27,669 bases of DNA from a virus. Both the position numbers and the translations under genes were made by a program. The notes under the pieces are model-generated. The model had not been told where the DNA came from and searched no databases. It was given only the letters and a program-made list of their open reading frames with translations. Positions 4,901-24,440 of the stretch are shown here, in pieces. The stretch spans positions 1-27,669 of IMG/VR virus record IMGVR_UViG_3300046001_003586; one strand, 5' to 3'. Every line of letters starts with the position of its first letter. Positions within the stretch are counted from its first letter, which is position 1.

Positions 4901-6135
4901 ATGTTCAGCGACGGAAGATCCAGGCGCACTACCCGCCCCGGGCGGCAGTTGTAGCCGGCGAAGTTCATGGGCAGGCTGATGGTGCCGCCCGCCCGGCGCC
5001 GGCGCAGCTCGATGTTGGCCAGGCGCTGGGCCTGGTAGGGATCGTTGACGTAGGAGAAGGTCAGGGTCTCCGCCGCCTCGCCGCCGTCTTCCAGCACCCA
5101 CTCGGCCACCACCACCTCGGGGTAGTCGGTCTCGGTCCAGGACTGCTTCGGGTCCATGAAGGTGCCACGCACGGTGTTGATCACCGCGTCGTTGCTCGGC
5201 TCGGTGGTGCCGGTAACGGTCCCGATCACCATGTCCTCGGTGATGGTGAAGTCGGCCGGGCCGTAGTAGGCGCCTGCCTGCAGCATCCAGCGACCACCGA
5301 CGCGGATCAGCTGGCCAGCGCAGGAGGCCTCGAGCTTCTGCAGCACCTGGGTGCGGGACTCGTCGGCGCCGATGACGCAGCCGGTCCGATAGCGAGGGCT
5401 GCCGGTGCCGTCCGGGTTCGAAGTGAACTCGTCGCAGACGTTGGCCGCGCTGGCGAAGGTCTCGAACACGATCTCATCGTCTGGCACATGGCAGCGATTG
5501 CGCAGGAACCACAGCAGGTGCAGCGCGTTGTTCTCGGTGTAGATGCTGGCGCCCGAGCGCGGATCGTAGATGTCGCGGCGGCCGCGCACCACGAAGCGCA
5601 CATCCGGCAGGCCGCTGGGGAATTTCTCGGCGCTATAGCGCAGCGACAGGCGCACGAAGCTCAGGCCACGGCCGATCTGCGAGTCCTTCCAGTCCGGGCA
5701 GTAGGTCTTGAGGAAGGTATTGACCTGGGTCGGGTTGACGATCAGCTCGTAGCTGGCCTGCTCGGCGAAGGTCGCAATGCTCTCCTCGCCCAGGAAGATG
5801 TCCTCCAGGCCGTCGATCTCGCCTTCCGACAGCACATAGACCAGGTGCAGCCACTCGCCATCGGCATCAGCGCCGCCCTGCTCCTGGGCCCAGGCCAGCA
5901 CGCCGCCAGTGCTCACGCGGCCGAGGATGTAGCGCGCCGGCGCCTTGCTGGAGCGAACGGTCTGGGCAGACGGCTCGCTCTCGCGCAGATTGGACTTGGC
6001 CGCCAGCTTCTCCTGCTGGTTGGCCGAGTACAGCGCAAGGCCAGCGCCGATAACAGCGCCCCAGGGGCCGCCCTGCATGAAGCCGATCGCGGCGCCAATG
6101 GCGACCTGGCCGATCTTACCGACGCCCTTGCTCAT
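1972..6135 (-). CDS. J: J-like central tail tip / host specificity protein
   Basis: A 1387-residue protein corresponding to lambda gpJ, the tail tip protein that binds the receptor. It begins with a glycine-rich hydrophobic segment (residues 7-40). A conserved J core follows to about residue 450, including VRFVVRGRRDIYDP and NALHLLWFLRNRCHVPDDEI. Two fibronectin-III-like domains occupy about 455-640. A long alanine- and glutamine-rich, probably coiled region runs to about 1225 and contains an inserted sugar-binding-like beta domain (about 838-970) and repeated modules. A C-terminal DUF1983-like domain (from about 1230) begins near EKVNATWSVKLG. It overlaps the upstream gene by ATGA and the downstream one by TGATG. 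The length is a little above lambda J because of the repeat region. The C-terminal half is the likely receptor-specific part. Confidence 0.92.
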   Translation of the reverse strand: MSKGVGKIGQVAIGAAIGFMQGGPWGAVIGAGLALYSANQQEKLAAKSNLRESEPSAQTVRSSKAPARYILGRVSTGGVLAWAQEQGGADADGEWLHLVYVLSEGEIDGLEDIFLGEESIATFAEQASYELIVNPTQVNTFLKTYCPDWKDSQIGRGLSFVRLSLRYSAEKFPSGLPDVRFVVRGRRDIYDPRSGASIYTENNALHLLWFLRNRCHVPDDEIVFETFASAANVCDEFTSNPDGTGSPRYRTGCVIGADESRTQVLQKLEASCAGQLIRVGGRWMLQAGAYYGPADFTITEDMVIGTVTGTTEPSNDAVINTVRGTFMDPKQSWTETDYPEVVVAEWVLEDGGEAAETLTFSYVNDPYQAQRLANIELRRRRAGGTISLPMNFAGYNCRPGRVVRLDLPSLNMSGEFIVTDWSMGTQEACTVSLQQYEPAIFDDAVGKPYNPIGFINLPAGGLGSPTDLKWTPDATAEVVQGVLSWTRPVGIVSGYAVTVRQGTNVVQAQQLPETAVTCPLSGLPSGNYVMSVAAVGPLARSGEVSITVSIGGPPIPESVSVQSSIDSITLVPRNSAGLNGGDYEFYFSTNPQASERDGQYLGRGMTFTHTGLAFSTAYAYFVRSRNAYGTSAFLKIIAYTSNDVSAYLAALSGQVNQSLLGQELNKQIDKIPVIESGLAQERTDRASAIVAEQQARQSGLQQVAQVAADNLAAESSARGQAIINEATIRQAADEQMSSRIQGVYAQVNPPMAGGGWAAGSTATYAGVWSEQFARAQGDAAEALARDTLSAQLRGGYTGTDPNQVTSGLIYQERRIRLSAEQALSQQISLVSAGVGEQFDSGVIWFFDSGVEGWTGNGTPTASGGFLRPANATLASIYSPAGLAVNADTYQQVRFRIKRTGSPSWNGRLYWGESWANSMAIDAPTFDVNGVSTVILNLSWAGTVGQIRLDLGSQSSSAFYELDWVAIGRASPGASYAALTAEQTARATADQALAQDISTLTARVTDPKTGNTALSSAVDNLTGRADNTEAGLSAVTTRVSGIYAQVNPPLAGANDWYAGSPTVLAGVWSEQYARADADNALGRRIDTTNASVAGNTAQITAEQQARASADGALAIRIDSVQATAAGAAAAVTSEQTARVNADGALGQRIDTVQAKANDNAALIQTEQTTRANADSALANRIDTVQATANNAATRAALQSEQVARADADTALARRVDTTQAALGNTNASVQQISQAQVITDEKVNATWSVKLGVTREGTYYAAGIGLGIEAGGGSAGFQSTFAVSADRFVVLGPGIDGYGRSFFSVVDNKTYIDTAFINKAYIVEAFIGQTLQSQRFTDYGQPVMTIDFNRGAVTIRDFSQNGAYTNQDENGFSMVAGGVELVKIGRLS
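2460..2850 (-). repeat. Four tandem 32-residue repeats within the J-like gene
   Basis: About four units of roughly 96 nt encode repeats with the consensus (T/S)EQxARxxADxALxxRIDxxQA. Units begin at ITAEQQARASAD, VTSEQTARVNAD, IQTEQTTRANAD and LQSEQVARADAD; the third unit is two residues longer. Diverged copies occur upstream (LTAEQTARATAD, EQYARADADNAL). The register suggests a trimeric coiled-coil stalk. These are coding repeats, not a CRISPR array. Confidence 0.8.
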
Positions 6136-6530
6136 TCAACTCTCCAAACCACTTCAGGCTCACACTCAACGCGCGCGGCGCCGATCTCGACCGATGTCCA
6201 GAACTCGCCGGCCCAATACACCGCCACCCCGCGCCCGTTCGGGCCCTGGTACAGCGCCACGTCGCCCCGCTGGATGAAAGCCGGGTTCACTCGGGCGAAG
6301 CAGGCATCCCAGGCCGCCTCCAGGCTGCCGTGCCGCTTGCTCAGCGCGCGCTTGGCCGAGGCCTCGCTGTCGTACTGGCCGCGGTAGTCGGCCGCCGGGT
6401 CCACCCCGCATACCGCCAGGGCGCAATCGGCGGCGAACAGGCAGCAGTCGAACTCGCCCCATGAAAAAGGCCGCTCGGAGGCGGCCTTGATCGTGTCGTT
6501 CAGTCGGGTGGTCCAGTCGCGGTAGCGCAT
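6132..6530 (-). CDS. NlpC/P60-like tail assembly protein (lambda K position)
   Basis: A 132-residue protein directly upstream of the J-like gene, where lambda encodes the NlpC/P60-family tail protein gpK. The motif FSWGEFDCCLFAADCA (residues 22-37) fits the nucleophile cysteine region of this fold, and the length fits the short DUF6950-like subgroup. The lambda family pairs a protease-like or peptidoglycan-hydrolase domain with tail tip assembly. I cannot assign the histidine partner with confidence; activity on peptidoglycan is therefore inferred. The stop overlaps the J-like ATG (ATGA). An intrinsic-terminator-like hairpin lies inside the first 70 nt of the coding sequence. Confidence 0.72.
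   Translation of the reverse strand: MRYRDWTTRLNDTIKAASERPFSWGEFDCCLFAADCALAVCGVDPAADYRGQYDSEASAKRALSKRHGSLEAAWDACFARVNPAFIQRGDVALYQGPNGRGVAVYWAGEFWTSVEIGAARVECEPEVVWRVE
6464..6488 (-). terminator. Intragenic terminator-like hairpin in the NlpC/P60-like gene
   Basis: In the minus-strand RNA an 8-bp stem (AAGGCCGC with GCGGCCTT, 6-nt loop) is followed by a run of five T residues. It lies 42-66 nt after the start codon and encodes part of IKAASERPFSWG. A translating ribosome would block it, so it could act as a polarity or attenuation element. Confidence 0.5.
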
Positions 6531-18147: not shown

Positions 18148-19875
18148 TTACCCGATCACGATCGGGTTGCTGAAGAAGTCGTCGAAGCCGCCGGAGCCGT
18201 TGGCCACGAGGCGCATCACACTGCCGACACCCATGATCAGCGCCACGGCGCCGTCGATCTTGTTGTCGTTGCCCTGCTTGATGGGCCGGACGATGTCGTC
18301 GTTGCCTGGCAGGTTCTTGCCGATCACGTTGGCGATACACCAGGTCATGATCGGGTTGCCGTCGTGGTGGAACCGGCCCGACTGGATAGCTGCTTCCAGC
18401 TCCTTCATCGGGTCGGACATGTTGGTGTAGTTCTGCACCGTGGTGACGGGGGTCAGACCCTCGTCGTCCAGCTGGTGGCTCAGGTTCGTGGCGCCGTGCG
18501 GGTCAATGGGGCTTTCGCTGACAGGCGAGACCTCGTTGGCCTCCTTGGCGTCCTCTAGGATCTCGCGATAGTCGATCTCGGCGCCCGGGGTTACCTGCAG
18601 GTGTCCGGTATTGATCCAGGCCTGGAAGCGCTCGGCCATCCGCTTGTTGTCGTCGTTGAAGGCCGTGTCCTCCGGTACCCAGAAGCCCGGCGCCACGCTG
18701 TAGTAGTGGGTACGGCCGTCGATGACGCGCCAAAACAGCCGGGCCATGGAGTTCATGTCCAGCTTGCGCGCCAGGTCGAACGCCAAGACGCATTCCTGGC
18801 CCTCGAATTGCTCCAGGGTGAGGGTCGTGTCCTCGCACGCCTTCCAGTTCTCGACGTTGAAGAAGCCGGCCTTGGCGCTCACCCAGAGGTTCAGGTGCTT
18901 CGTCTTGAAGGTGTTGGTGAAGCGCGCCGAGCGGATGGCCCGGGCCAGCTGGCTCTCCAGGTACTCCTGATAGACCGACACGCCCATGCAGGGGTTGGCC
19001 TTGGCCAGGTTCTTCGGGTCGGTCCAGTCGTCGCCCTCGTCCAGAGTCCAGATCCAGGCGAACAGCTCAGGATCCGGCACCGAGCCTTCCAGCATCTCGA
19101 TGGACTGGCGGCGCTTGTCGTAGCACGGCCCCTCGATGTTGGCGCCCGCCGTGGTGATGATGAACATCAGCGGCTGCCGGCGGGCGCCCATGCCGGTCAG
19201 CATGGTGTCGTACTGGGCCGAGCTGTCGTGCTCGTGAAATTCGTCGATGATCGCGCAGCTGGGTGAAGCACCGTCGCCGGGGTTGCCGATCAGGGGTTCG
19301 AAGCGCGAGCCCTGGGCCGGCACGTTCATGTTCGAGGCATTCACCTCGATCCCGGCCGCCTCGATCAGCATCGGCGAGCGCTTCACCATCAGCCTGGCCG
19401 GGCGGAAGACCTCCCAGGCCTGCTTCTCGGTGGTGGCGCCGCTGTACACCTCGGCGCCGAACTCGTTGTCGGCGACGAACATGCTGATGCCGACGCCCGC
19501 GGCGATCACCGACTTGCCGTTCTTGCGCGGCACCTCCCAGTAGCTCTCGCGGAAGCGCCGGTAGCCGTCTTTCTTCCTGAGCCAGCCGAAGGTGCAGGCC
19601 ATGCCGAACAGCTGCCAGGGCTCCAGGGTGATGAGCTGGCGCTTGAACGCCCACTCGCCCTTGGTGTGCGGCATCAGCTGCACCAGGCGCAGCTTCTTCT
19701 CCGCCTGGGCCGCGTCGAACTTGTAGGGGAAGCCCTTGCCGCGGCTCTCGGCGACGTCGTCGAAGTGCCGCTGGATCGCTAGGTGGATGAACCGGCACGC
19801 CGGCACTCTGCCCTTCAGGACGGACCGCGCCCACGCCATCGCCTTGTCGACGTTGGGCGTGGGGGTCTTGGCCAT
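18148..19875 (-). CDS. terL: Terminase large subunit (Terminase_1)
   Basis: A 575-residue packaging motor ATPase and nuclease. The Walker A variant PRKNGKS is at 116-122 and the Walker B end IIDEFHEHD at 209-217 (Asp211-Glu212). The C-terminal nuclease domain contains [14 protein letters not shown] and the final acidic site [14 protein letters not shown]. The ATG at 19875 overlaps the small subunit stop as TGATG; a longer open frame upstream is a shadow of TerS. The HK97-type neighbourhood and nearby HNH gene suggest cohesive-end (cos) packaging. Confidence 0.96.
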
Positions 19876-20360
19876 CAGGAACCTAAGAGAGCAGCGAACT
19901 CGTTGGTGGATTTCTGTTTGTTGCCGCCGATCAGGCGCGTCCGGCTGGCCGGGTCGAGCCCGAGCAGTGAACCGAAGGTCACCATCTGGCGCATCGTTTC
20001 GTTGGCGGCGGTCAGGGCCGGGTTCTTCATCGGCCCGCCCTGGGCTCCCTCCACGACGATGCCGTGGGTGTTGATCGATTCCTGCGCGAGGCGCCAGTTG
20101 CCATAGGCCGTGCAGAAGGCCTCGACGTTGTGCAGGTCGGTGAGCGCCAGCACGTTCTCGCGCAGCAGCTCGGGAATGATCATCTTCCACATGTCAGCCG
20201 CTCGGTCGTTCAGCCACTCGGGCGGATCGACGTTGGTGACCGTGGAGAACTGGGGTTCGGCCTTGTTCAAGGCCCGCTTGCCGGGATTTCCGGCGAGCTG
20301 TTTCTTGGCCGTGGGCTTGGGCTTGCGACCTCGGCCAGCGACCGCCGCTGTGCCGCCCAT
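19875..20360 (-). CDS. terS: Terminase small subunit (P27 family)
   Basis: A 161-residue DNA-recognition subunit of the P27/Terminase_4 family. It has the basic N-terminus [20 protein letters not shown], the [20 protein letters not shown] segment, and the [15 protein letters not shown] helix typical of the family. AGGAG lies 8 nt before the ATG. It is the first packaging gene after a 130-nt gap that may hold the cos site it binds. Confidence 0.94.
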
Positions 20361-20490: not shown

Positions 20491-20856
20491 CTACAGACTG
20501 GATCGCCGGCCTGCCGCTGACTCGCGCAGCGTCTTGACCCGATGGCAGTCATGGTTGATGGCTGCCAGGTTGTCCGGGGTATCGCTGCCGCCTTGCGCCA
20601 GGGCCACGATATGGTCGACCTCATGCGCCGGCCTGACACGACCCAGCCGCTTGCAGTCCTCGCACTGGCAGAGGTAACCATCACGCTTTAGCACCTGCTC
20701 ACGCATCCGTCGCCACGGCCGGCCACCACGACCAGAGCCCTGCCGATTGGCCCAGGCCTTGGCTTGGTCGGCGTGCTCATCGCAGTAGCCACCAGCATTG
20801 CGGGTCAGCGCGTTGCAGCCTCGGGCGCGGCACGGCTTGTTGGGTCGCAGCGCCAT
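20491..20856 (-). CDS. HNH endonuclease next to the terminase
   Basis: A 121-residue HNH nuclease, similar in size and place to HK97 gp74, which stimulates terminase cleavage at cos. The core is HEVDHIVALAQGG (78-90, with Asp81-His82), Asn95 in the DNLAAINHDCHRVKT stretch, and His102/His105. Cysteines at 63, 65, 68 and 104 probably bind structural zinc, and an N-terminal C9/C14/C25/H28 group may form another site. The ATG overlaps the upstream stop as TGATG. Confidence 0.9.
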   Translation of the reverse strand: MALRPNKPCRARGCNALTRNAGGYCDEHADQAKAWANRQGSGRGGRPWRRMREQVLKRDGYLCQCEDCKRLGRVRPAHEVDHIVALAQGGSDTPDNLAAINHDCHRVKTLRESAAGRRSSL

Positions 20857-21255: not shown

Positions 21256-22845
21256 CTACGCTCTAACCGGTTTCCACTCAGCCATGCGCTCATTCGCCCG
21301 AGACTTGATCAGCTCGCGGGTAGCGGCGTGGCCGGTGTCATCGAGATTCATCTTCTCGCCACCCATGGCTCCATCACCTCCGGCAATCCAGAGGGTGACC
21401 GGGACGCCGTTGGCCTTGGCTTCATCCAGTGCGCGGGCAAGGGCTTGGCGGGCCGACTCAGTAGGCGGGATACCCGTCTCACCGATGAAGCAGCGCAGAC
21501 CCTTGGTAGCCATGTAGCTGTAGGCCGGCCGGAAGACGTTGGCGATCTGGTCCACCGGGAAGGCGTTCAGGTTGCCGCTGCTGTACCGACCGCTCGAATC
21601 GCCACTGAGATCGCCGTAACCGTGCACTTCGGGGATCCAGTTGTTCGCCGGGTCCTTGATGCCAGCAGCGAATGTGCCGCTCACCTGGGCGAAGTTGCGA
21701 GCCGACGCCCACTGATTGCCGCAGACGAACACCGGCTTGTTGGTGACCTTGCGGATGATCGGCAGCATCACGTTCGCATCGGCGACCACCTTGGCTTCCA
21801 TCGCCGTGACAGTGAGGCTGTCGAGGGCGCCGCCGGAGGCATAGGGCTCATTGCCCAGGCCGTAGCCCAGGATCATAGGCTCATCGAAGGTCGTGGCCAT
21901 GGAGGCGATATGGTCGCCCAGGTCCGCTGCGCCCCAGCCGTTGGCGTCGTCGATGAAAACCAGTTCCTGGCGCTTCCATCGGCCACCCTGCCCGGCTGCC
22001 TCGCCGGACGGCAGTAGCGCACCGGTCTGCTTGCGGACGCCATCTACCAACGCGGTCTGGTTGCGGTACATGCGCCAGTAGTGGTGCGGGTCGAAGATGA
22101 CCAGCGCCTCGCCGTTCGAGTCCTCGCGGATCCAGCCCAGCACGGTCTTCATCTTGGCGACGAAGGTCGGGTCGAGCTGGCCGCCTTTCACCGGCAGGCC
22201 GGTCGAGTCGATCAGCGTGGCGCGCTGGAGCGCATAGGGGAAACGGATCAGCCGGACGCCCAGGTCGCGCACGTAGAGGCGGACATCTGCGCGGCTGGGC
22301 CACTTGAAGTGGGTACCGGCTTCACCCGGCAGCACCTGGTTCGCGTTCGAGTGCGCCGCCAGGTTCACGCCCAGGTAGGGGATATTTTTGAGCACCGCCA
22401 CGCCTGGCACCGTGACGGGCTCAGGCTCAGCGACCGGAGGCGTGACCACTGGCGTCTCAGGTACCGGATCAGGCTTGGGCGCGGTCTCCGGCTTGGCGTA
22501 GCGGTCGCGCACCGTGGCGGCCTTACCGATAACCTTGGACGGGTCACCGATGCTCTGGTCGATCACCGCCACCAGGTCGCCGTTGTCGCGGCGGCCGATG
22601 CTGACCACGTTCACCGCCTGGCCGGTAGCCAACTGGATCACCACCTGGCCAGCAACGACCAGCGAGCTGTAGGGCAGGATCAGTGTCTTGTCGAAGGCGC
22701 CGCGAATCGTCGTTTCCAGCGGCAGCCTGCCTACCGGCTTGTCCGGGATCGGCGTGGGAGTCGGGTTCTCTGCAGCAACCAGTTCCGCCAGCTGCTTTTG
22801 CGCAGTCGAAAGCGTGTCGCCCAATTCCTTCAGGGTGGCAGTCAT
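21256..22845 (-). CDS. GH5-like glycoside hydrolase in the lysis region
   Basis: A 529-residue protein from the ATG at 22845 (GGAG 7 nt upstream; an in-frame GTG at 22869 is less likely). It has an N-terminal coiled segment, a small beta domain (about 40-115), a Pro/Val/Glu-rich linker (about 118-148), and a C-terminal GH5-type barrel (about 153-529). Clan-A signature residues are visible: Arg201 (RLIRFP), His254 (FDPHHY), acid/base Glu333 (LGNEPY), His408 and Tyr410 (VHGYGD), nucleophile Glu456 (FIGETGI) and Trp486. There is no signal peptide or membrane segment, so it would reach the envelope through a holin or as a virion part. GH5 enzymes cut beta-linked glucans or related polysaccharides; the substrate here is unknown. 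It lies between the holin-like genes and the terminase genes, where an endolysin is often found. Confidence 0.85.
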   Translation of the reverse strand: MTATLKELGDTLSTAQKQLAELVAAENPTPTPIPDKPVGRLPLETTIRGAFDKTLILPYSSLVVAGQVVIQLATGQAVNVVSIGRRDNGDLVAVIDQSIGDPSKVIGKAATVRDRYAKPETAPKPDPVPETPVVTPPVAEPEPVTVPGVAVLKNIPYLGVNLAAHSNANQVLPGEAGTHFKWPSRADVRLYVRDLGVRLIRFPYALQRATLIDSTGLPVKGGQLDPTFVAKMKTVLGWIREDSNGEALVIFDPHHYWRMYRNQTALVDGVRKQTGALLPSGEAAGQGGRWKRQELVFIDDANGWGAADLGDHIASMATTFDEPMILGYGLGNEPYASGGALDSLTVTAMEAKVVADANVMLPIIRKVTNKPVFVCGNQWASARNFAQVSGTFAAGIKDPANNWIPEVHGYGDLSGDSSGRYSSGNLNAFPVDQIANVFRPAYSYMATKGLRCFIGETGIPPTESARQALARALDEAKANGVPVTLWIAGGDGAMGGEKMNLDDTGHAATRELIKSRANERMAEWKPVRA

Positions 22846-22902: not shown

Positions 22903-23154
22903 TTACGGGTAGCCGTGGAGGGGCTCGCGTTGTCCGCCCCATTGCTCAGGCAGCGTGCAGGCCGTTACCTGCAGGCGATATAGCTTTTCGGGCAACTGCA
23001 TAGCTCCGGCGTCATAGCCAGGGGCAGCAACCCAGATGGTCTGGAGCGCGTTTCGGCATTCCCACGTCCTGCCGAGATAGCCCAGGCCATTTCCGAACAC
23101 GAACACCAGAGCGGCGCCCAGCAGCAGTTTCGCGGTCTGTTTGAGCCGCCTCAC
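22903..23154 (-). CDS. Small N-anchored membrane protein of the lysis region
   Basis: An 83-residue protein starting at a GTG that overlaps the upstream stop (GTGA). One hydrophobic segment (about residues 9-28, AKLLLGAALVFVFGNGLGYL) follows a basic N-terminus, predicting an inner-membrane anchor with a periplasmic tail. The tail has cysteines but no lipobox and no clear Rz coiled coil. A spanin-like or lysis-control role is suggested by context only. Confidence 0.65.
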   Translation of the reverse strand: MRRLKQTAKLLLGAALVFVFGNGLGYLGRTWECRNALQTIWVAAPGYDAGAMQLPEKLYRLQVTACTLPEQWGGQREPLHGYP

Positions 23155-23474
23155 TGCCTGGCTTCCTGTCGGCGCTCAGCAACCCGGCGCTCGCGGCCTA
23201 CGATCAGCGAGCCGACACGGTGGAAGATGTAGCCGGCGATGAAGACCGAGTGGCCCACCACCAGGGCGCTACCGTCGCTGTTGTTGACCATCTTCCAGGG
23301 CTCGGCGTACCAGAGCTGGATGTGCCCCAGCATCAGCAGCAGGGTCGAGACCATCAGGAAGGCTATCTCGGCGTGGTCGTCTTGGCGGAACCGGCCACCC
23401 AGGGTCAGGAATACGGCGCAGCGGCCAATGACCAGGGCATATGCCACAAGGGCGATTAGCGACACGATGAACAT
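23151..23474 (-). CDS. Three-TM holin-like membrane protein
   Basis: A 107-residue membrane protein with hydrophobic segments near 1-25, 37-56 and 71-91 and a basic C-terminus (REREV-like run after GSLIVGRE). Size, topology and place in a short membrane-protein cluster fit a holin or antiholin. ATG and stop overlap both neighbours (TGATG and GTGA), so it is coupled to them. The family is not firmly recognised. Confidence 0.7.
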   Translation of the reverse strand: MFIVSLIALVAYALVIGRCAVFLTLGGRFRQDDHAEIAFLMVSTLLLMLGHIQLWYAEPWKMVNNSDGSALVVGHSVFIAGYIFHRVGSLIVGRERRVAERRQEARQ

Positions 23475-23764
23475 CAGGGGCCTCCGGGGCTGAAGCGCTC
23501 CACAGCAGACTTGACCTTGACCTCCAGCACCCCGAGCACCGGGTAAGCGAAGAAGCCCAGCAGCATGATGATGCCGGCCCGGTACTGGTTGGAGACATCG
23601 ATGAACTCGCCAGCCACCTTGCCCACGAAGAACGCCACCACCAGCTTGCCGACGAAGGTTCGCCAGTCGAAGCGCATAGATGTGGCGCCGGGGTAGAACA
23701 GGCTGGCAAGCCCACCCAGCATCCCGAGGAAGCCGACCAGTGCCCAGTCCAGGAGCTTTTCCAC
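23474..23764 (-). CDS. Holin candidate, first gene after the late terminator
   Basis: A 96-residue membrane protein with two or three hydrophobic segments (LDWALVGFLGMLGGLASLFY; FVGKLVVAFFVGKVAGEF; RAGIIMLLGFFAYPVLGVLE) and a charged C-terminus. It starts at the GTG at 23764, preceded by AGAGG at 9 nt; the frame stays open upstream but that part crosses the terminator and promoter, so it is not taken. It resembles LydA-type holins in pattern, which I recall but cannot confirm. As the first gene after the late promoter and terminator it sits where lambda S does. Confidence 0.72.
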   Translation of the reverse strand: MEKLLDWALVGFLGMLGGLASLFYPGATSMRFDWRTFVGKLVVAFFVGKVAGEFIDVSNQYRAGIIMLLGFFAYPVLGVLEVKVKSAVERFSPGGP

Positions 23765-23786
23765 TGGCTTGGTCCTCTCGGAAATG

Positions 23787-23812
23787 AAAAAGCCCAGCAC
23801 GGTGGCTGGGCT
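23787..23812 (-). terminator. Intrinsic terminator before the lysis genes (tR'-like)
   Basis: Minus-strand 8-bp stem AGCCCAGC with GCTGGGCT (6-nt loop, 23812-23791), followed by five T residues (23791-23787). It begins about 40 nt after the predicted start of the late promoter and precedes the holin candidate, matching tR' of lambda in layout. Confidence 0.85.
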
Positions 23813-23860
23813 TGTGTGCCGCTGCATCTTCATCATTCGCAGGATCGGCAAGATAGGGAA

Positions 23861-23889
23861 ATCATCGGCCAAACGGCCAATCCTGTCAA
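23861..23889 (-). promoter_or_regulatory. Strong sigma70-type promoter, candidate late promoter (pR'-like)
   Basis: On the minus strand a perfect -35 TTGACA (23889-23884), a 17-nt spacer and -10 GATGAT (23866-23861). Start of transcription is expected near 23854. The spacer holds a direct repeat of TTGGCCG (23880-23874 and 23872-23866), a possible Q binding element. The -35 includes the stop codon of the Q-like gene. Confidence 0.75.
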
Positions 23890-24440
23890 GCAACTTCTCT
23901 TTCGAACAATTCCTGACCTTCTAGCAGGTGAATTGCAGCAGCAATCGCCAAATCCAGGGCCTCGTTTAGCATCTCGTGGATGTAGCCTCGCCAGCGCCGC
24001 ATGGTGCGCTCAGAGGTGCCCTGGTTGTTGTCCCAGCGGGCCATGTCGTAGATGTTCTCGCGCAGCACGATGGTGGAGCGTTTGCCCTCAACGCCGGCGC
24101 GCTGGGGCATGGCCCAGGCCAGGACGGCGTAGGACTTGAAGTGGTCGTGGGCCGGGGTGGCGATGATCCTGGCCAGCCTCTTGATCGCCGGGGCACGGTC
24201 GGCCGGCTCGATGGTGTAGCGGGCGATCAGGGCGTCCCAGTGGCGCTCCTTCAGGTGCTTGCGTAGGAACGCTCGGTATTCGCAGTCCAGCTCGAAGCGC
24301 TCCTGGCGCGACAGGCCACCGAAGCCCCCTCTCCCATCCTGGTCAGCGTCCAACCAGGCGGCGGATGCGGTCTTGCCCTCGCTGCCGGCGAGGAGGATGC
24401 GGACCAGGGTTGATACCTTGCTACTGCTGAAACTCTGCAT
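23886..24440 (-). CDS. Candidate late antiterminator (Q-like by position)
   Basis: A 184-residue soluble protein, the last gene before the late promoter and lysis genes, the place of Q in lambdoid phages. The sequence has a helical core (RQERFELDCEYRAFLRKHL, then HWDALIARYTIEP), and a possible helix-turn-helix near the C-terminus (TSERTMRRWRGYIHEML, residues 142-158) followed by a long alanine-rich helix. I do not recognise a defined Q family by sequence, so the call rests on position, DNA-binding-like features and the promoter-terminator pair that follows. Confidence 0.6.
   Translation of the reverse strand: MQSFSSSKVSTLVRILLAGSEGKTASAAWLDADQDGRGGFGGLSRQERFELDCEYRAFLRKHLKERHWDALIARYTIEPADRAPAIKRLARIIATPAHDHFKSYAVLAWAMPQRAGVEGKRSTIVLRENIYDMARWDNNQGTSERTMRRWRGYIHEMLNEALDLAIAAAIHLLEGQELFEREVA

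Follow-up and report, generated by a model that had tools for sequence, protein, structure and literature searches.

Prophage-borne genes for GH5 glycoside hydrolases have already been described in pseudomonads. In P. syringae, Psyr_4600 and PSPPH_0655 are annotated as a "putative GH5 cellulase" and have com located upstream (PMC3899960). Prophages and tailocins often carry LlpA genes as cargo, mostly with Com in front of them, and release of LlpA by prophage lysis ("piggybacking") has been proposed (PMC6240691, PMC2647930). Among other phages, gp095 of Erwinia phage S6 is a GH5 enzyme that degrades carboxymethylcellulose, and S6 uses cellulose as its receptor (PMC9544554). Moreover, Pseudomonas phages ZRG1 and ZQG1 encode a "cellulase family glycosylhydrolase", which is a GH5 protein with the same active-site residues as the one described here.

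The DNA analyzed here is a 27,669-nucleotide stretch (the window; positions 1 to 27,669 of IMG/VR record IMGVR_UViG_3300046001_003586), probably a fragment, from a temperate Pseudomonas siphovirus. By description, the P. syringae genes resemble the Com-linked GH5 genes reported below, to which they would be homologous; the window gene differs in having an extra N-terminal domain, and no Com gene was found in the window. With LlpA, the GH5 protein shares its niche, the lack of a signal peptide and an optional presence, LlpA genes lying beside holin, repressor and Com genes; unlike LlpA, it is a hydrolase and not a lectin toxin, and no killing activity is implied. It is, as S6 gp095, a phage GH5 with extra N-terminal domains, but S6 is a lytic member of the Schitoviridae, and both the N-terminal domains and the genomic region of gp095 differ. 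The ZRG1 and ZQG1 proteins are also different, with 27% identity, a long helical N-terminus and a location outside any lysis cassette. We propose, with a probability of roughly 0.6, that the window gene is accessory cargo of the late operon, encoding a beta-glucan-type hydrolase that is let out at lysis.

The GH5 gene (P0001) lies on the minus strand (22845..21256), with its ATG at 22845 and its stop at 21256, and encodes 529 amino acids; an RBS-like GGAG is found 6 nt upstream of the start, and the same interval on the forward strand has an internal stop. Residues 185-489 match PF00150 (Cellulase) with an E-value of 3.8e-22 and 79.5 bits (Pfam cut-off 23.5), while NCBIfam gave no name for the protein or for its neighbours. 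A PDB sequence search retrieved the P. stutzeri endoglucanase 4lx4 (1.2e-19) and RBcel1 4ee9 (2.2e-15). The catalytic set was previously noted as intact, and it is: R201, H254, N332, E333, H408-x-Y410, E456 and W486 do not vary across 14 phage homologues, and the same eight residues are also invariant in six tailocin or island homologues and two lytic-phage GH5s. In the HMMER alignment with RBcel1, E333 (codon 21847..21849, minus strand) corresponds to Glu135, Y410 to Tyr201 and E456 (codon 21478..21480, minus strand) to Glu245, which in RBcel1 are the acid/base, a conserved tyrosine and the nucleophile, respectively (PMC8900817); E333 is thus the predicted acid/base, and E456 the predicted nucleophile. 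The catalytic domain, with a dN/dS of 0.10-0.16, is under purifying selection. In addition, the AF2 model of the protein contains a barrel predicted with moderate confidence (mean pLDDT 62, pTM 0.57), for which Foldseek returned RBcel1 as the top PDB match (4.5e-14, TMt 0.74). Among solved structures, RBcel1 and P. stutzeri Cel5A, both GH5_5 endoglucanases, are therefore the nearest, and the enzyme appears to be GH5_5-like. The likeness extends to the modelled fold and to all catalytic residues, including the three equivalents named above, but identity is approximately 21-25%, and the window protein has an extra N-terminal helix, beta domain and linker and is phage-borne.

The protein begins with a predicted amphipathic helix (residues 1-26; 22768..22845, minus strand), modelled by AF2 as a helix over residues 2-26 and supported by hydropathy. 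It is followed by a small beta domain (residues 36-116; 22498..22740, minus strand; pLDDT about 80-87), a proline-rich linker (residues 117-150; 22396..22497, minus strand; pLDDT < 50) and the GH5_5-like catalytic domain (residues 151-529; 21259..22395, minus strand), assigned from PF00150 and the Foldseek match to RBcel1. No signal-peptide-like hydrophobic stretch was detected by hydropathy, so that model, sequence and hydropathy agree with the N-terminal beta domain, proline-rich linker and missing export signal described in the earlier note. This architecture raises the main rival to our reading, namely a virion-attached depolymerase, in which the helix and beta domain would dock the GH5 enzyme to the particle and the incoming phage would cut exopolysaccharide at adsorption, a mode of action already suggested for S6 gp095. 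In its favour, Foldseek gave weak matches of 75-95 columns (E about 1e-3 to 1e-2) to phage tail or virion proteins, among them proteins of Burkholderia phage KL1 and Achromobacter phage Motura, and these matches, judged by their length, would fall on the beta domain. Moreover, window-clade homologues whose sequence extends that far, all from phage contigs, have the N-terminal domain, and six Com-linked tailocin or island copies lack it; S6, whose gp095 degrades carboxymethylcellulose, needs host cellulose (PMC9544554). On the other hand, no similarity to the KL1 tail protein emerged when the domain was compared with it by profile, and the gene sits in the lysis region, from holin-like genes to terminase, and not among tail genes. 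Near-identical N-termini also occur together with TerL, portal and capsid proteins that are less than 50% identical, which indicates that the N-terminal type does not track the head genes. Searches with the N-terminal domain gave no convincing relatives by tblastn, no match by PDB profile search and only marginal PHROG matches. In G008 and L008, the GH5 part is 90-91% identical to that of the window, whereas the beta domain is 14-16% identical, suggesting that the N-terminal module has been swapped or is fast-evolving. Altogether, we regard attachment to the virion as rather unlikely.

The genes described here on either side of the GH5 gene are all on the minus strand. Furthest upstream lies a 184-aa protein of phrog_3412 (23886..24440), probably a late regulator, as the equivalent interval of a sister prophage (G014) encodes a Phage_antitermQ protein. 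Next come a 139-aa holin-like membrane protein (23474..23893; PHROG holin 3.8e-4; PF16083 4.9e-6, its 27.0 bits being slightly below the 28.4 cut-off), the small membrane protein p107 (107 aa; 23151..23474), which matched no family and is placed by synteny, lying beside the holin in relatives, and p83 (83 aa; 22903..23154), directly upstream of the GH5 gene, placed by synteny and with a single TM segment recognized by inspection. Downstream of the GH5 slot are an HNH endonuclease (20491..20856; PF01844, 5.4e-13) and the terminase small (19875..20360; PF05119, 2.4e-25) and large (18148..19881; PF03354/PF20441) subunits, which confirms that the gene stands between holin-like genes and the terminase cluster. 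Small genes of other relatives (F31/F20) were considered as holins and rejected, as they matched no holin family. Elsewhere in the window, a DUF6950/phrog_2134 protein with a DCC motif (6132-6530, minus strand) is encoded immediately upstream of the tail-tip gene J; it is a possible tail-tip peptidase, given that NlpC/P60 proteins occupy that position in similar phages.

The earlier note placed the GH5 gene where an endolysin is expected and saw no endolysin in the window. The latter observation held, since Pfam recognized no lysin in the window proteins that were scanned, but the former was not supported. In two relatives whose GH5 is 90-91% identical (G001 and G003), a 157-158-aa phrog_3108 protein is encoded past the tail fibre, followed by an Rz-like protein and an Rz1-like lipoprotein. 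The two phrog_3108 copies (L023:770-1243, minus strand; L027:18612-19088, plus strand), both upstream of Rz/Rz1, are 98% identical to each other. PHROG assigns no function to this family; Achromobacter phage Mano has a homologue that carries an endolysin annotation and lies between holin/antiholin and i-/o-spanin genes, and further homologues are annotated as lysozyme. The family is probably one of phage endolysins, a role resting on synteny and annotated homologues, as fold and profile searches gave no confirmation: the model, all-helical and confident (pLDDT 85), resembled no PDB structure at E <= 0.001, and the profile search had no PDB match and a single weak SLT match (E 0.27). An invariant E38 and a GPARG-x-WQFE stretch in this family are reminiscent of the lytic-transglycosylase ES...GLMQ motif, and the enzyme class may accordingly be lytic-transglycosylase-like. 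Other relatives have a phage lysozyme (G005), a GH19 lysin past the tail (G006) or a lysozyme adjoining the GH5 gene (G010, G011 and G013). Because in the closest relatives the endolysin gene lies at what would be just beyond the left end of the window (position 1), its absence from the window is best seen as an edge effect; looking left of that position thus located the gene in G001 and G003, and by extension the window phage would carry it there too.

These observations bear directly on the suggestion that the GH5 protein is an unusual lysis factor, which would replace or assist the endolysin by cutting a cell-wall or envelope glycan. The gene does adjoin holin-like genes, but the relatives have a separate endolysin-family gene with Rz/Rz1, a lysozyme or a GH19 lysin, the sister prophages described below have no GH5 gene, and the active site fits beta-1,4-glucanases and not muramidases. 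The protein has a GH5 fold and no peptidoglycan-hydrolase domain, and, judging from the relatives, would not be the sole lysin. A role as the phage lysin is rejected on the evidence of the relatives' endolysin genes together with the GH5-less sister prophages, and any such part in lysis is very improbable.

The sister prophages (G014-G017) were reached through endolysin homologues; their endolysins are 98-99% identical, they share a varying selection of tail, holin, HNH and terminase genes with the window and its relatives, and none carries GH5. In G016, the holin, p107 and p83 genes run directly to a 65-aa ORF and then HNH, in G015 a 110-aa ORF takes the GH5 position, and in G014 the interval holds small ORFs besides the antitermination-Q protein. 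In G017, whose TerS is 100% identical to that of the window, the interval between late regulator and terminase, where GH5 lies in the window, contains Com, an LlpA-like lectin and two holins; at L082:14570-15609 are the Com Zn-ribbon (PF10122) and, following it, the two-domain lectin bacteriocin, whose best PDB match is Putidacin L1 (9.3e-64). The GH5 gene is therefore an optional accessory gene, dispensable among sister phages, and shares with Com-linked cargo the lack of a signal peptide, a place beside lysis genes and this dispensability. As to insertion sites, the prophage integrase of G001 (L025) directly adjoins mutS, and in P. fluorescens prophage 01-like pyocin elements are known to occupy the mutS-cinA region (PMC2647930).

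More distant homologues were found in bacterial genomes, where seven of the 398 Pseudomonadaceae genomes had a strong GH5 match; a wider alignment-based viral scan gave the same 13 loci again. One of the seven (G022; L015 / L108, Pseudomonas sp. EpS/L25) has a window-type copy apparently broken into several frames, which looks like a decaying prophage copy. The remaining six encode GH5 proteins of approximately 390 aa, 44-47% identical over the catalytic domain, without the N-terminal domain, and all six have Com directly upstream. In G391 (L104/L109, about 5334000-5352400), the gene belongs to a tailocin of the R type, located between trpE and trpC. Alongside repressor, Com and GH5, this element has genes for sheath, baseplate and fibre as well as a GH19-like lysin, and no head genes were seen; the trp genes and several tail genes were named by inspection, and the sheath was identified through a Pfam match in its G360 homologue. 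In G289 (L105:8761-11979), the order is repressor, Com, GH5, a small membrane protein that by position would be a holin, and a GH19-like lysin, and in G404 (L106:7547-11928) it is repressor, Com, GH5, holin (PF05106) and cell wall hydrolase (PF07486). Both loci have apparent host genes on their flanks, and no virion genes were noticed within the 19 kb read, so they are possible sacrificial lysis islands. The tailocin and island contexts argue that the enzyme can act without a virion.

Regarding the substrate, the modelled fold points to beta-1,4-glucan-like chains, and a beta-glucan-type substrate is what we infer. Host cellulose was considered but not supported, as carriers show no enrichment of BcsB, used as the marker of cellulose synthesis, which was full-length in one of seven carriers compared with about 66 of the 298 background genomes; these numbers are small, and the Com-linked clade supplies most of them. 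Furthermore, a prophage-borne glycosyl hydrolase of P. syringae PG4180, with com upstream, had no detectable cellulose-degrading activity (PMC3899960). Both results caution against naming cellulose as the substrate. The PG4180 result also weighs against the idea that the enzyme, freed by a few lysing cells, would serve the lysogen population as a shared nutrient enzyme that digests polysaccharide of plants or soil and not bacterial matrix. That the closest enzymes of solved structure are cellulases from soil and Pseudomonas, that tailocin and island copies would be freed by sacrificial lysis, and that prophage-borne "GH5 cellulase" genes exist in P. syringae (PMC3899960) are in agreement with such a role, which we nevertheless consider improbable.

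Overall, of the three options put forward in the earlier note, a lysis-time matrix-degrading enzyme is the best-supported, given the active site, purifying selection, the position in the lysis region, the lysis set of relatives, dispensability, and recurrence beside Com, holin and lysin genes. According to this proposal, the GH5 protein would be optional cargo of the lysis/late operon, a retaining GH5_5-like endo-beta-glucanase made late, in the cytoplasm and without an export signal. Holin, a separate endolysin encoded left of the window and Rz/Rz1 would open the cell and free the enzyme, which would then cut a beta-glucan-type polysaccharide outside it, be it matrix or a surface glycan, belonging to kin or to neighbouring cells, and this should help progeny to spread; late expression, release at lysis, substrate and benefit are all presumed. 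Against it stands the N-terminal domain, found in the phage copies but not in the six tailocin and island copies, which may serve the phage copies in an additional way, e.g., virion docking. The PG4180 and BcsB results also count against it. A broader and more tentative possibility is that Pseudomonas phages, tailocins and repressor-Com-GH5-holin-lysin islands follow one scheme, retaining prophage lysis genes as a sacrificial secretion device for a polysaccharide-cutting enzyme, much as colicin lysis releases toxins.

What appeared to be an oddity, a cellulase and no endolysin, thus becomes a testable pattern of optional cargo beside lysis genes. In some prophages a GH5 gene fills the cargo slot, in another a lectin bacteriocin does, and the virion-free islands appear to retain just repressor, cargo, holin and lysin. 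If true, lysis would deliver matrix-active enzymes as well as toxins, which would bear on how signal-less cargo proteins of Pseudomonas exit the cell.
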